Shown here piece after piece: positions 25,498-32,730 of a stretch of 43,357 nucleotides of DNA. The notes under the pieces were generated by a model. The model did no database searches. It worked only from the letters and a program-made list of their open reading frames with translations, and was not told where the DNA came from. The stretch is from Rouxiella silvae (GTDB lineage: Bacteria; Pseudomonadota; Gammaproteobacteria; Enterobacterales; Enterobacteriaceae): assembly GCF_002093625.1 (NCBI RefSeq), contig NZ_MRWD01000050.1, forward strand, positions 1 to 43,357, written 5' to 3'. Within the stretch, counting starts at the first letter, position 1; each line of letters begins with the position of its first letter. The translations under genes and the position numbers were made by a program.

Positions 25498-25660
25498 TCA
25501 GGCGGTGCGATACCAGCCCATCAACTTGATAACGCTGTTGGTGATATCAACTCACCGCTAGGTACATGCAACCAGCCTTTACGAATATGTCAGCCAGCAG
25601 CAACGGCATTTTGAGTCCTTAATAGACAAGTCCGGCTTTACCCCTGATATCACTGCGAGT
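25498..25660 (-). pseudogene. Decayed second copy of the tail-fibre 3' end
   Basis: Bases 25498-25550 repeat 26381-26433, the last 53 bases of the H-like fibre gene, with one mismatch, same orientation. The copy would encode the fibre C-terminus DITNSVIKLMGWYRTA. Further upstream on the minus strand (about 25569-25655) a second block resembles the fibre's GGHIHKGG region (about 26595-26690) at roughly three-quarters identity, with the intervening part lost and no open frame. It is a fibre-gene remnant left beside FI. Confidence 0.85.
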
Positions 25661-25696
25661 TATTCTGTTATCAGGCTGCATTAAATACGAGCGTAC

Positions 25697-26203
25697 TCAA
25701 TCCAATATTTTTATGTCTAAGAAGTTATTAACTTTCGCCATTTTCACAGCATCATTTTTAATATCATTTAGCCATTGCTGCAATGCATCTAGCATTTCAT
25801 TTCCAAAATTATCAACCTGCAACTGAAGTGTTTGGTTGTCTTGAATCATATGTCTAGAGTTCCCCCGAACCCCTGGCATAACAAATGCAAATTCATCCAA
25901 AACCTCTCGCGCCCTTTGGGATGTTATATCGCCACTACCTTCATGAAGGAGAGCGCACCTCAAGGCATAAAAGTCATTGCCACTTAAGAAAACATGTTCC
26001 ATCTTGCCGTCTGGACCTAAATTGTGGGTATATTTAGGCTTTAGGTATTTATTGAACCAGTTATTTGTTCTCCTTTGTGAAGACGTACACTTTGGCTCAT
26101 CTACTTTTCCACAGATATCTGGAAGAGTTAAAGATATAAATAAAACGCCATACCAGTTTTCGGTCTTTAATGCAGTATCTAAAGCTTTGATAAAGTTATT
26201 CAT
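25697..26203 (-). CDS. Unrecognised cargo protein at the Z/fun position, HEPN-like motif
   Basis: I do not recognise a named family. The 168-residue soluble protein has a GNDFYALRCALLHEGSGD segment (about 75-92). R82 and H87 there form an R-x4-H pattern as in HEPN ribonucleases, set in a predicted helical protein. AGAGG lies five bases before the ATG. The gene is much richer in A and T than the flanking tail genes. It lies between the fibre gene and FI, where P2 carries Z/fun, which excludes phage T5, and it is bracketed by fibre-end repeats. A defence or exclusion role is plausible but inferred; the R-x4-H match could be chance in a short motif. Confidence 0.7.
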   Translation of the reverse strand: MNNFIKALDTALKTENWYGVLFISLTLPDICGKVDEPKCTSSQRRTNNWFNKYLKPKYTHNLGPDGKMEHVFLSGNDFYALRCALLHEGSGDITSQRAREVLDEFAFVMPGVRGNSRHMIQDNQTLQLQVDNFGNEMLDALQQWLNDIKNDAVKMAKVNNFLDIKILD

Positions 26204-26380
26204 GTATACCTCTAAGGAAATGATTGAAAACTTCCTATCGTCCGTAAAATTAGCATAGCATCAAATTAGATGGACACTCACTATTTTAATGAAAAGCTTG
26301 AGGTTTCCGTAAACTCAAAATCGATATATGTCTGTAACTTCGCTTGCTATAACTTGGCCGCTATGGCTTTCCCAAAACAA

Positions 26381-27460
26381 TCAGGCGGTGCGATACCAGC
26401 CCATCAACTTGATAAAGCTGTTGGTGATATCAATGCTGCTGCCGTTACCGAGCGCCGACGTTTTGCCGTTTATAATATGTTCATGCGGGCCAATATAAAC
26501 GTCATGCTCATGATCGGGCGCGGCGTCCGTATTTCTTAAAGACACATCAACCTGATTGTTAGAACCAATAGGCGTCTTTGAGTATTCATTGCCAGGCGCG
26601 AGCAACCCGCCTTTATGAATATGCCCGCCAGCCGCAGCGGCCTTTTTGGTTCCCAAATCGACAGACTCGGCCTTACCGCTGATATCAATTTGCACATTCG
26701 GCAGATTATCTTTACCCAACTGGATGCTGTCCGCGCCGCCCGTGGTGAGCACGTCGCTGCCATCCTGTTTTCCCAGGCGAAGCGTTTTGTTTTCGCCAAG
26801 ATAAACCCACGTTGACCACGGCCATTTAACATTCGGGTCTATCTTTTGCTGAAATAATCGCACCGTGCCTACTGGGTTATCGTCTTCCCACACGTCGCGG
26901 ATAGCGGTTTTCATTGCATCAGCCAGGGCCGTCTTTAAGGTTTCGGTCAGCGTACCGGCCACGCCGTCGGTGTAGTCCTGCGCGGCGTCCTGTGCCTTTT
27001 TCAGTTCGGCGGCCGTGGCAACAATTACGGACGGGTCAGCATTCAACTGCACGCTGGCCGCGCTGCTGACCGCAAGCCAAATGCGGATCACCTGGTGACG
27101 TCCGGCCCCCTCGGCCAACAAAGGCTTATAAGTTTCGGGGATGCTGGCGACAGCCAGACACGCCCCCACGTCGTCGAACAAAGCCGCCTCGCGAAGGGTG
27201 AAGCCGCCCGCCTGCGAAGGAATAATAATTTCTGCCTGGATAATATTGCGACTTTTATCGACCAGCGTCAGGCTGTTGAGCGCCGACCGATAAACCTCGT
27301 TAACCAGCCCGACCGGCGTCGGGTCAAGCACGGGAACGCGGCCGCCCCCGTCCCCGACGGCCATAAAAGCGAACCCCGCCGGTGAGCCAGAAATAGTGGC
27401 CTGAGAAATCTTCTCCTCGCCAACCGCTGTCAGCTTCGACATAAAACGCTTTTCAGCCAT
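26381..27460 (-). CDS. Tail fibre protein, gpH-like N-terminus and HxH-rich tip
   Basis: The N-terminal 140 residues (SKLTAVGEEKISQ, FMAVGDGGGRVPVLDPTP, EVYRSALNSL, GFTLREAALFDD, ETYKPLLAEGAGRHQ) match the P2 gpH baseplate-binding domain (DUF3751 type). A short linker leads to a beta-rich C-terminus with three HxH motifs (GGHIHKGG, DHEHD, GPHEH), a pattern that binds metal in fibre tips such as T4 gp37. At 359 residues it is much shorter than P2 gpH (about 670). No gpG-type fibre-assembly gene is next to it. It probably contributes to host attachment. Confidence 0.85.
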   Translation of the reverse strand: MAEKRFMSKLTAVGEEKISQATISGSPAGFAFMAVGDGGGRVPVLDPTPVGLVNEVYRSALNSLTLVDKSRNIIQAEIIIPSQAGGFTLREAALFDDVGACLAVASIPETYKPLLAEGAGRHQVIRIWLAVSSAASVQLNADPSVIVATAAELKKAQDAAQDYTDGVAGTLTETLKTALADAMKTAIRDVWEDDNPVGTVRLFQQKIDPNVKWPWSTWVYLGENKTLRLGKQDGSDVLTTGGADSIQLGKDNLPNVQIDISGKAESVDLGTKKAAAAGGHIHKGGLLAPGNEYSKTPIGSNNQVDVSLRNTDAAPDHEHDVYIGPHEHIINGKTSALGNGSSIDITNSFIKLMGWYRTA

Positions 27461-28366: not shown

Positions 28367-30190
28367 TTACTTGTACCAGTTTAAATTTAACAGATGCGAT
28401 TTAATCACATTCTCGACAACGGCTTTATGGGCGGCCATATTTAAATGCGCGGCGTCCAGTGACAATGACGTCGCCTTATATCCCTGCGCCTGCATTGTCA
28501 GGTCGGATGGCGTGGGCGTTATTCCCGCATCAGTCCATATTTGCGCGCTGCACATATAATCCTGCGTATCGACATATAGCGGGCCAAACTTTTCCTTGCA
28601 GCGGCGATTCATTTCCGCGAGACGCGTTTTATAAATATCGTTGCCGTATGCGCTATCATTAAATACGCCAATAACTACTACACGCTTAACCATTGTCGAA
28701 ACGTGCATGACAGTTTTCACCACGTTATTAAAAATGGTATCCATCGTTATTTCAGGATTGGTGACCGCATCAAACTTTAAATCGTTTTTATACATCCACA
28801 GCAGCACGACGCCATCGCGATACGTCACGGGCAGGCTAGGAATAAAATCCTCCGGCCCTGATAGCGCGACGGCATCACCGGCGGCAGCTCGGGTAAAGCT
28901 CAGGGATTTTAACTGGTTGTCCCATTTCAAATTCCCCGCCACGCCGTGCAGCGTGCCGTCGTAGCTTTTCAAATAATTGCTGTAGTAATTGCTCGGCAAC
29001 TGCTGGCACGCCACGGCGACACTGCCGGACGCAGGCAGCGTGTTGTCTGGAAATTTCAACGTAAACGGCACCGCACCAAATCGCGCCGCAACGTGAAACG
29101 AGGTTTCGCCGCCTTGCCCCTGATTGTTCCAGTCTGTTACGCCCAGCTCTGCCGCAAGGCTAGTGAAATTCACCCCGACGCCGCCCTGGGTGAAGGAAGA
29201 CGATCCCCAGCCGGACATTTTCAGCATGTCAGGATTGACCGGCGATAAATTACCGTCGGTATCAAAATAGCGGTCATGCAAATTAAGCGCCTGGGGTGAA
29301 GAGGACTCGCCGCCCGTTACGATTTCTTCGGCATAAAGTTTTTTGATATACAATTCACTGTCTGTCGTGAGCGCGGCGGCAAAACCATTTTGTCCCATAA
29401 CACTCCATGCCAGCCCGTAAGGATTATCGGTTAATGCATTACCGCCGACCGACGTCGAAACGGTATTAAGTACCCCTTCCTTTGTCAGCGCGAGGGCCAA
29501 GCCGTTTGCACCTAAAATAATAAAAGGCAGCTCGGACGATGAAAGTACACCGGCATTTTTAACGGATAACGTTCTTTCTGCTTCAAGCGCTTGAATAATT
29601 CCCCCTAAATCACCAATGTGAAAAATAACCCCGTTATTCCCTTTAATGGCAAAAGAGCCATCCGGCATTAACCCAAACATTTGCTTTAGGTTGTCGATTT
29701 CTTCCTGCTGCGGGTCGGGTGCCTTTTCCCAGGCACCGTTACTCCAGAAATATAAACTGCCGCTGCTCGCATCCATTGCCAGCGCGTGGGCCGTCGTGGG
29801 GACAAAGGCCAGCAAAGTGGCAACGTCCTTAAACGCCATCGCCGAGCCTGCGGCATTGCTGTAGGCCACGGCAACGGCCTTGCCCCCGTCATTGCGGTAG
29901 TTAATAAAACTGATAAACCCACCGACGCCTTGCGCGACTCGGAACAATTGGCCTTTCGTGGTGGCGGCCAGCCCGGCACGCGTGCCATCCGGATCGGACT
30001 CCGTGATATAAAACGTGAAGCCTCTCAAATCAGGATTATCATCAATCGCCGCTTTCAAATACTGCGTGCGGTTTGCCAGCTGCGCCGCCTGCACGTTTGC
30101 TACGCCATCCAATCCGCCCACAACGCGCTCGCCACGCTGGATTTGATGAATATTTTTTTCCCATAATGCCGACTCGTTAATGTTAGTCAT
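28367..30190 (-). CDS. Tail spike with C-terminal SGNH-type esterase domain
   Basis: The 607-residue protein starts with a phage fibre-type N-terminus (GLDGVANVQAAQLANRTQYLK, about 27-46). A linker follows, then repeats with GLALALTKEG and GFAAALTTDS (about 225-280). The C-terminal half (about 320-600) has SGNH-hydrolase blocks: nucleophile region GWGSSS (327-332), GQGGETS (358-364), YKND (467-470, block III Asn) and DAAH (579-582, catalytic Asp-His pair). Such spikes typically remove acetyl groups from capsule or O-antigen. The start overlaps gpI by eight bases, so it takes the place P2 gives to gpH. Confidence 0.85.
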   Translation of the reverse strand: MTNINESALWEKNIHQIQRGERVVGGLDGVANVQAAQLANRTQYLKAAIDDNPDLRGFTFYITESDPDGTRAGLAATTKGQLFRVAQGVGGFISFINYRNDGGKAVAVAYSNAAGSAMAFKDVATLLAFVPTTAHALAMDASSGSLYFWSNGAWEKAPDPQQEEIDNLKQMFGLMPDGSFAIKGNNGVIFHIGDLGGIIQALEAERTLSVKNAGVLSSSELPFIILGANGLALALTKEGVLNTVSTSVGGNALTDNPYGLAWSVMGQNGFAAALTTDSELYIKKLYAEEIVTGGESSSPQALNLHDRYFDTDGNLSPVNPDMLKMSGWGSSSFTQGGVGVNFTSLAAELGVTDWNNQGQGGETSFHVAARFGAVPFTLKFPDNTLPASGSVAVACQQLPSNYYSNYLKSYDGTLHGVAGNLKWDNQLKSLSFTRAAAGDAVALSGPEDFIPSLPVTYRDGVVLLWMYKNDLKFDAVTNPEITMDTIFNNVVKTVMHVSTMVKRVVVIGVFNDSAYGNDIYKTRLAEMNRRCKEKFGPLYVDTQDYMCSAQIWTDAGITPTPSDLTMQAQGYKATSLSLDAAHLNMAAHKAVVENVIKSHLLNLNWYK

Positions 30191-31696: not shown

Positions 31697-32047
31697 TCAG
31701 CTCACAGGTAAGGAAATGGAAAAGGCCGCCGCCGTATCAACGCGGGTGCCGGTCAGCTCAACCACCATTTTTCCGGCTTCGGTTGCGCCGTAGGTGATGC
31801 CGGTCAGGTTCACGCGGGGTTCCCACTTGAGCACGGCCATATAGCAGGCGGCCATGATTTGCAGCGGCAGCGCGGGATTCATGGGCATATCAATCAGGTC
31901 AGACAGCATTGAGCCGTATTCACGACGCATCACCCGTGAGCCAATCGGCGTGCCGAGAATGTCGCTTAACGACTGGCGAATGTGGTCGAGATCTTCGATT
32001 GCCAGCCCGCTGTTGCGATTCATGCCGAGGTATTTTGCGTTAGCCAT
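31697..32047 (-). CDS. W: Baseplate protein gpW (gp25-like)
   Basis: gpW belongs to the gp25-like baseplate family. The 116-residue product (P2 115) has the typical core LSDILGTPIGSRVMRREYGSML and PLQIMAACYMAVLKWEPRV. It starts inside the end of V (eight-base overlap). Confidence 0.95.
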   Translation of the reverse strand: MANAKYLGMNRNSGLAIEDLDHIRQSLSDILGTPIGSRVMRREYGSMLSDLIDMPMNPALPLQIMAACYMAVLKWEPRVNLTGITYGATEAGKMVVELTGTRVDTAAAFSISLPVS

Positions 32048-32684
32048 AGGTGCCCTCTGTTTTGTCTCCGCCGCGCATCACGCCGCCGTGCGAATGGTTA
32101 TCAACCTTCACGCCGTTTGAGGCGAGCGTGCCGCCCGAATGGTTGATATCGCCGCGCATCTCGCCGCCGCTGGTGACCTTAAGTGTTTTGGTCACCAGCT
32201 CGTGGGTGCATTCGACCGTGGGGGAATCCAGCACGATTTTTTGCGAGGCCGTCACCGTCACCAGCTTGGCGGTGGCAGTGATGGACTCGGATGCTTCGAT
32301 GTTCGCGGAAGTGATCCCGATAGCCTTTAGCGCGCCGGTTTTCGGCTCGTACTCAATTACCGCGCCGTCGGAAAAAGCGAAGTGAAGCGCCTCGGCAGAG
32401 GCCGAGGGGGCGGGGAAATTGTCGGAGAAAATACCAGGCAAAACGAAAGCGGCATTCAGCTCACCGCCCAGGGAAAAAATAAGGACTTGCTCGCCAACGG
32501 ACGGCGCGAACCAGGTGCGGGACTCGCCCGCACGGGCAGAGAGCCATTGCAGCCAGTCAGTGGTATTTTCACCCGTGAGCACGCGACATTTTCCTGCGAA
32601 CAGGTCAATCTCGGTCACGGTGCCAATGCGGATCAGGTTGCGAATGAGTCGCAGGGTTTCGTTTAGTTCTTCATGTAGATTCAT
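32040..32684 (-). CDS. V: Baseplate spike protein gpV
   Basis: gpV is the membrane-piercing spike at the tail tip. At 214 residues (P2 211) it has an OB-type N-terminal domain (LIRNLIRIGTVTEIDLFAGKCRVLTG) and TTDWLQWLSARAG, then a beta-helix. The C-terminal apex HNHSG-like pattern, here VDNHSHGG (about 197-204), binds iron in P2. I start at 32684, matching P2. The AGGAG there is only one base from the ATG, and an in-frame ATG twelve codons upstream has no site. It opens the V-W-J-I late unit. Confidence 0.92.
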   Translation of the reverse strand: MNLHEELNETLRLIRNLIRIGTVTEIDLFAGKCRVLTGENTTDWLQWLSARAGESRTWFAPSVGEQVLIFSLGGELNAAFVLPGIFSDNFPAPSASAEALHFAFSDGAVIEYEPKTGALKAIGITSANIEASESITATAKLVTVTASQKIVLDSPTVECTHELVTKTLKVTSGGEMRGDINHSGGTLASNGVKVDNHSHGGVMRGGDKTEGTYG

Positions 32685-32690
32685 ACTCCT

Positions 32691-32696
32691 ATTACA
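32691..32696 (-). promoter_or_regulatory. Probable -10 of the V late promoter
   Basis: On the minus strand TGTAAT lies where a promoter activated from the site at 32731-32748 would need its -10. It would place the transcript start at or very near the V start codon. Confidence 0.5.
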
Positions 32697-32730
32697 ATGA
32701 TTGGGGTGAAAAAAATCCATGATATGTGTA

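Follow-up and report, generated by a model that had tools for sequence, protein, structure and literature searches.

The window analysed here, the whole 43,357-nt stretch of contig NZ_MRWD01000050.1 of Rouxiella silvae (one of the 128 contigs of the assembly), contains a P2-like prophage whose last fibre gene ahead of the tail sheath (26381..27460, minus strand) encodes a 359-residue fibre of the tail-collar type. It is surrounded by P2-type genes for the sheath, baseplate J, gp25/W, spike V, scaffold, and terminase. The fibre was assigned to PHROG 4618 (E 2.7e-102), and its only Pfam match is PF12571, Phage_tail_fib (E 6.2e-42, 143.6 bits against a gathering cut-off of 23), which covers residues 4-149 (27014..27451, minus) at the N-terminus and presumably attaches the fibre to the baseplate; NCBIfam gave no match for the fibre. 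A collar-like domain follows at residues 187-254 (26699..26902, minus), with a pLDDT of about 90 over residues 187-226 in the second structure model described below and a weak likeness to T4 gp10. In P2, gene H is followed by the chaperone gene G. Directly after the present gene come a 168-aa ORF (PHROG 18591) and then the sheath, with no chaperone gene there, and for this reason we do not file the fibre as P2 gpH in the strict sense. No gene for a Tfa-type chaperone was found in the window, and the only PF02413 match of the genome lies on a different contig. The genome encodes a second fibre of the same kind on a different contig, 71% identical and with a different tip loop. Another fibre of the prophage lies upstream (607 aa, 28367-30190, minus), has no HxH motif at all, and has a sub-threshold match to a GDSL lipase (E 0.072); proteins in its place in relatives are annotated as endo-N-neuraminidase or tailspike, and it is perhaps a first fibre that modifies capsule or O-antigen.

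The C-terminal region of the 359-residue fibre carries three HxH motifs, as the preliminary description had claimed and as the ORF and the motif positions bear out: GGHIHKG with His280/282 (26615..26623, minus), PDHEHD with His317/319 (26504..26512, minus), and, nine residues past the latter, GPHEHI with His326/328 (26477..26485, minus). They are closer together than the earlier figure of about 70 residues, with 49 residues from the first to the last histidine. Six of the seven histidines of the protein sit in these motifs, and three or more HxH arose in only 9 of 100,000 shuffles of the fibre's own letters, so a cluster produced by chance is unlikely. We assembled 92 tips (28 viral-contig loci, 53 genome-contig loci, 10 phage or genome records, and the window), which after setting aside 5 partial ones gave 77 distinct tips and 50 representatives at less than 85% identity. 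The genome-contig tips were found with patterns lacking HxH, and one of the six patterns that gave the viral-contig tips did include it. Histidine occupies the six columns in 50, 50, 46, 46, 48, and 50 of the 50 representatives; the second motif is missing in four of them, and two have Gln at His326. Entropy is 0 to 0.5 bits at the histidine columns versus 2.8 to 3.2 bits at the middle residues of the motifs. The C-terminal segment past the last motif, which ends in KLMGWYRTA (26384..26476, minus), is 31 residues long in 48/50 representatives. The number of HxH motifs ranges from 2 to 8 across the 50 tips, and with three the present tip deserves the earlier epithet of short.

A number of arguments favour homology between the C-terminal half of the fibre and the needle of T4 gp37, to which the preliminary description had likened the tip. 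First, a profile built from 29 tips, themselves picked by an expression demanding three HxH, aligned to gp37 with an hhalign probability of 97.3 (E 2.4e-11). Second, the alignment runs motif on motif: His280/282 falls on gp37 His915/917, and His317/319 and His326/328 fall on His980/982 and His989/991, with GGHIHKGG opposite GGHTHSGS and DHEHDVYIGPHEH opposite DHSHSVGIGAHTH. Third, when the PDB was searched with the same HxH-selected profile, 2xgf, the gp37 tip, was the sole significant chain (whole-sequence E 2.2e-4), a score inflated by low-complexity content since the best single domain reaches an i-E of just 0.37. The fibre used as a single sequence retrieved nothing relevant from the PDB (best E 0.18), and the collar stretch resembles the C-terminal domain of T4 gp10 weakly in sequence (E 0.97). 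Taken together, the profile comparisons support both the homology and the earlier gp37-like reading of the tip. The composition bias of the 2xgf match (25.7 bits against a domain score of 14.2) would also suit the idea that the motifs are a by-product of the Gly/His/Thr-rich strands common in phage fibres, with no need for metal binding. Yet the motifs of the window (HIH, HEH, and HEH) have unlike flanks, relatives keep the histidines while varying the middle residue, and the counting rule described below is not expected from composition alone; we disfavour this by-product and regard it as very improbable.

In gp37 itself, the HxH motifs have been reported to hold iron (PMC11705849, PMC6957217), with seven iron ions in all (PMC11705849), in a needle of six antiparallel strands whose residues 932-965 form an OmpC-related region (PMC9659904); replacing His929 or His931 by Ala is reported to abolish plaques (PMC6957217). 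Structure prediction for the present fibre gave a first monomer model, from 19 aligned rows, that was discarded at a pLDDT of 43.7, and a second one, from 54 rows hand-picked among relatives, with a mean pLDDT of 76.1 and a pTM of 0.39, in which the start of the collar and the needle strands are confident and the loop is loose. Foldseek comparison of the second model with the PDB gave no match with an E-value of 0.001 or lower; 2xgf was absent among the best 50 of 81 matches. The weak matches included a Pseudomonas phage fibre, T4 gp10 (gp10-type folds at E 0.18 to 0.55), and the Bizionia protein C24, described as somewhat similar to the T4 tip (PMC11821841). Among the BFVD models, a fragment of T4 protein 37 was matched at E 3.3e-3 and a probability of 0.57. 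By the parity of a beta-strand, motifs nine residues apart would point to opposite sides, an objection answered solely by the equal nine-residue spacing in T4 gp37.

Between the first and second motifs lies a loop, residues 283-316 (26513..26614, minus), whose position matches that of the receptor region in T4 and whose sequence is variable. Compared with the fibre of another genome of the same genus (L002), residues 1-254 are 99% identical, residues 255-279 are 56% identical, and residues 317-359 are 91% identical, versus 39% identity in the loop over 23 aligned residues with 26 gap columns. A like contrast between loop and flanks separates two viral contigs, L029 and L031. This pattern fits the exchange of a receptor head between conserved flanks, and the loop is presumably that receptor-binding head. 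Two motifs directly flank the variable loop, as they might if exposed histidines of the cluster bound the receptor or the cell surface themselves instead of serving the structure. The histidines are constant while the loop changes, however, the third motif is kept although it is distant from the loop, and a lost basal site has mostly turned hydrophobic, which suits a buried place; a direct role in surface binding is thus hardly credible.

That basal site, which we call site 0, corresponds in the window to V256-Q-I258 (26687..26695, minus), is HxH in 35 of the 50 representatives, and precedes the outward needle stretch of residues 259-279 (26624..26686, minus). In all 15 representatives lacking HxH there, both histidines were replaced jointly, by Val, Leu, or Ala at the first position and Ile, Val, or Leu at the second, as expected for an inward-facing pair. 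The wider set of tips described below lacks HxH at site 0 in 42/92 cases, 33 of which have a hydrophobic pair and 9 another one (Q-L in seven, S-L in one, and E-I in one). Parsimony needs just two changes on the tree, so these replacements represent few events.

Longer relatives have two kinds of repeat, one of ten residues in the outward strand (of the type STFDYGTKTT) and one of nine residues in the inward strand (of the type IGAHTHTVG), and the lengths of the two strands are linked by a simple rule: counted from site 0 up to the first HxH, the outward stretch is 10n+4 residues long, where n is the number of inward sites spaced nine residues apart. It thus measures 14, 24, 34, 44, 54, and 64 residues for n from 1 to 6, and the fibre of the window, with n=2, has the 24 residues that the rule gives. 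Among the 77 distinct tips, 75 obey it, two of them (L028 and L108) when QxH is counted as a site; the rule fails in L097, which has HTY at its fourth inward site, and in L073, which has an extra HxH spacing of 12 residues in both the outward and the inward strand. We then widened the set to 138 distinct tips, 24 of which went unmeasured (18 in the window's class, 3 of T4 type, and 3 others), some of the 18 being covered by the earlier alignment-based count of 75/77. In the window's class, all 92 tips that could be measured, 39 of them new, fell on the 10n+4 line; L097 and L073 joined it because degenerate sites were accepted as units in this class, with site 1 placed at the first G-x-HxH. With intact HxH alone the count is 89/92, the degenerate site being needed for L097, L108, and L028. 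The new tips of this class test the slope little, as 37 of the 39 have n=2. On representatives, the line took 63/63 tips, whereas 10,000 shuffles put 31.0 on it on average and 44 at most.

The tips with T4-type ends share this slope with another intercept: 10n+2 holds in 21 of 22 tips, T4 gp37 among them, and in 11/11 representatives, and the single exception, L225, has lost residues inside its top motif. The slope was fixed before the additional loci were fetched, and the intercept of 2 in the T4 class was fitted afterwards. Stricter anchors were used for the counts of 92/92 and 21/22, a looser automatic placement of site 0 (60/77 new tips) having been wrong for L137, L138, L159, L177, L209, and the T4-type tips. 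The window's class covers n values of 1 to 6, the T4 class those of 3 to 5. One HxH unit of 14 residues is present in each strand of T4 gp37; such units occur in both strands in 3/22 T4-type tips and in neither in 19/22. The tree is poorly resolved, leaving 45 of its 85 inner branches open; parsimony puts at least 12 changes of n on it, and far fewer are forced by well-supported branches.

The plain reading of the rule is an antiparallel needle whose outward and inward strands must lengthen together. We consider it somewhat probable, with distinctly less confidence than we place in the fold itself, that gp37-type needles grow in general by an obligate pair, 10 residues outward and 9 inward with one metal site, such that reach and ion number would be quantised together and a pair of residues, hydrophobic for the most part, could take the place of a metal layer, as at site 0 here. 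Needles with HxH were known before, and the apparently new element here is the counting rule, which a search of the mostly open-access literature on HxH and gp37 tips did not turn up. As far as the cited accounts go, published HxH needles have been reported by motif count, case by case. If true, the rule would make the number of ions readable from sequence alone across many fibres: the relation between outward and inward length would be a test of needle topology that needs nothing but sequence, would predict the ion number, and would show where the receptor loop begins and ends. Its starting point was a fibre with three sites from an enterobacterial prophage, and since T4 gp37 has the same slope, the rule can be checked against the solved structure 2xgf.

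We infer from these elements, with a probability of about 0.83, that the fibre ends in a gp37-type receptor-binding tip, in which an outward run, an apex loop, and an inward run would build a trimer with stacked metal sites. Past the collar domain, the chain would run outward, make the apex loop at residues 283-316, where it should touch the host receptor, and return inward. Each HxH, present three times in the trimer, would contribute six histidines to the binding of one metal ion on the axis, by analogy probably iron(II). This would give a stack of three ions: 280/282 and 317/319 would each bind one right below the apex loop, and 326/328 would bind the third, one unit lower; the fourth, basal site of most relatives would be vacant and filled by V256 and I258. 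The length of the tip would be set in paired units, with 10 residues for the outward strand and 9, including the metal site, for the inward one; n is 2 here. The same fold might instead hold zinc, nickel, or copper, or be filled in part, with a role in registering the trimer during folding and not in the stability of the finished fibre. T4 gp12 has HxH with zinc, possibly acquired in purification, and buried ions have been proposed to act in folding, a proposal for which, according to the same source, experimental backing is still absent (PMC6116203). Iron, on the other hand, is what has been reported for gp37, for R pyocin fibres, and for gpV-type spikes (PMC11705849, PMC6116203), and we consider another metal or a folding role unlikely, if less so than the two alternatives weighed above. 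The same prophage has a further HxH at the apex of its spike protein gpV (32040-32720), within NHSHGG (residues 209-211, 32088-32096, minus), so HxH occurs in both the spike and the fibre of one phage; P2 gpV is reported to carry iron at a motif of this type (PMC6116203).

Among known systems, the tip of T4 gp37 (2xgf) shares with the present fibre an HxH needle in which the receptor region, presumed in the window fibre, separates the outward from the inward motifs, inward motifs spaced by nine residues (980, 989, and 998), and, putatively, the arrangement of a collar and an antiparallel needle (PMC7291167, PMC9659904), the collar being weakly matched in the window fibre. It differs in having seven HxH versus three, in ending with VRLA 26 residues past the last HxH versus KLMGWYRTA and 31 residues, and in requiring gp38 (PMC3004832), whereas the window fibre has no Tfa-type gene nearby. 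The receptor-binding family of the T4 and lambda lineages described in PMC9659904, which names a Klebsiella phage among its members, is similar in that homology is confined to the last ~215 residues and the receptor region is divergent; the main text of that paper mentions neither histidine nor iron. The collar fibres of Klebsiella Peduoviridae (such as ST13-OXA48phi12.1 and ST437-OXA245phi4.1) are close to the window fibre, with 36 records whose alignments cover 80% or more of the length at 41-49% identity, and the gene lies directly ahead of the sheath in five of the seven opened; they have a different loop, and end in LLMCWSRVA (6/7) or LLMCWARVA (1/7). Burkholderia phage E094 has P2-like relatives. 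Its gp23 also has a gp37-like C-terminus with HxH predicted to bind iron, but has seven motifs versus three, and is accompanied by the Tfa-like chaperone gp24 (PMC8174754), of which no counterpart was found in the window.

The interval between the fibre and sheath genes is occupied in the window by an 883-bp stretch (25498-26380) that is absent in L029 and L030, where the fibre end runs straight into the sheath leader. The 3' end of the fibre gene recurs as a direct repeat of 53 nt, 98% identical, that bounds the stretch. Within it is a decayed second copy of a tip (25498-25652), far more similar to the tip of this same fibre (78/103 aligned letters) than to the L002 tip (23/33). Insertion in the window and repeat-mediated deletion in the relatives fit equally well; an invertible tip cassette was rejected, as the tip copies are in direct orientation. 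In a further locus (L036:489-2359), an interval of ~1.9 kb between fibre and sheath contains frames open for 216 and 300 codons, and a duplicated tip end was sought there and not found. Within the 883-bp stretch lies the 168-aa ORF (25697-26203, minus), which has neither a Pfam nor a PADLOC match. Its relatives are found in phages of Acinetobacter, Bacillus (SPbeta-type), Escherichia, and Gordonia (eight records) and, split in two pieces, in 1 other of the 149 genomes of the family, with none in the viral contigs searched. A role as fibre chaperone was rejected, given the lack of a Pfam match and the relatives in unrelated phages. P2 itself carries fun in the stretch between tail fibre and sheath. 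A second P2 defence locus is reported to contain fun (PMC9519451), and our guess is that the 168-aa ORF is a defence gene.
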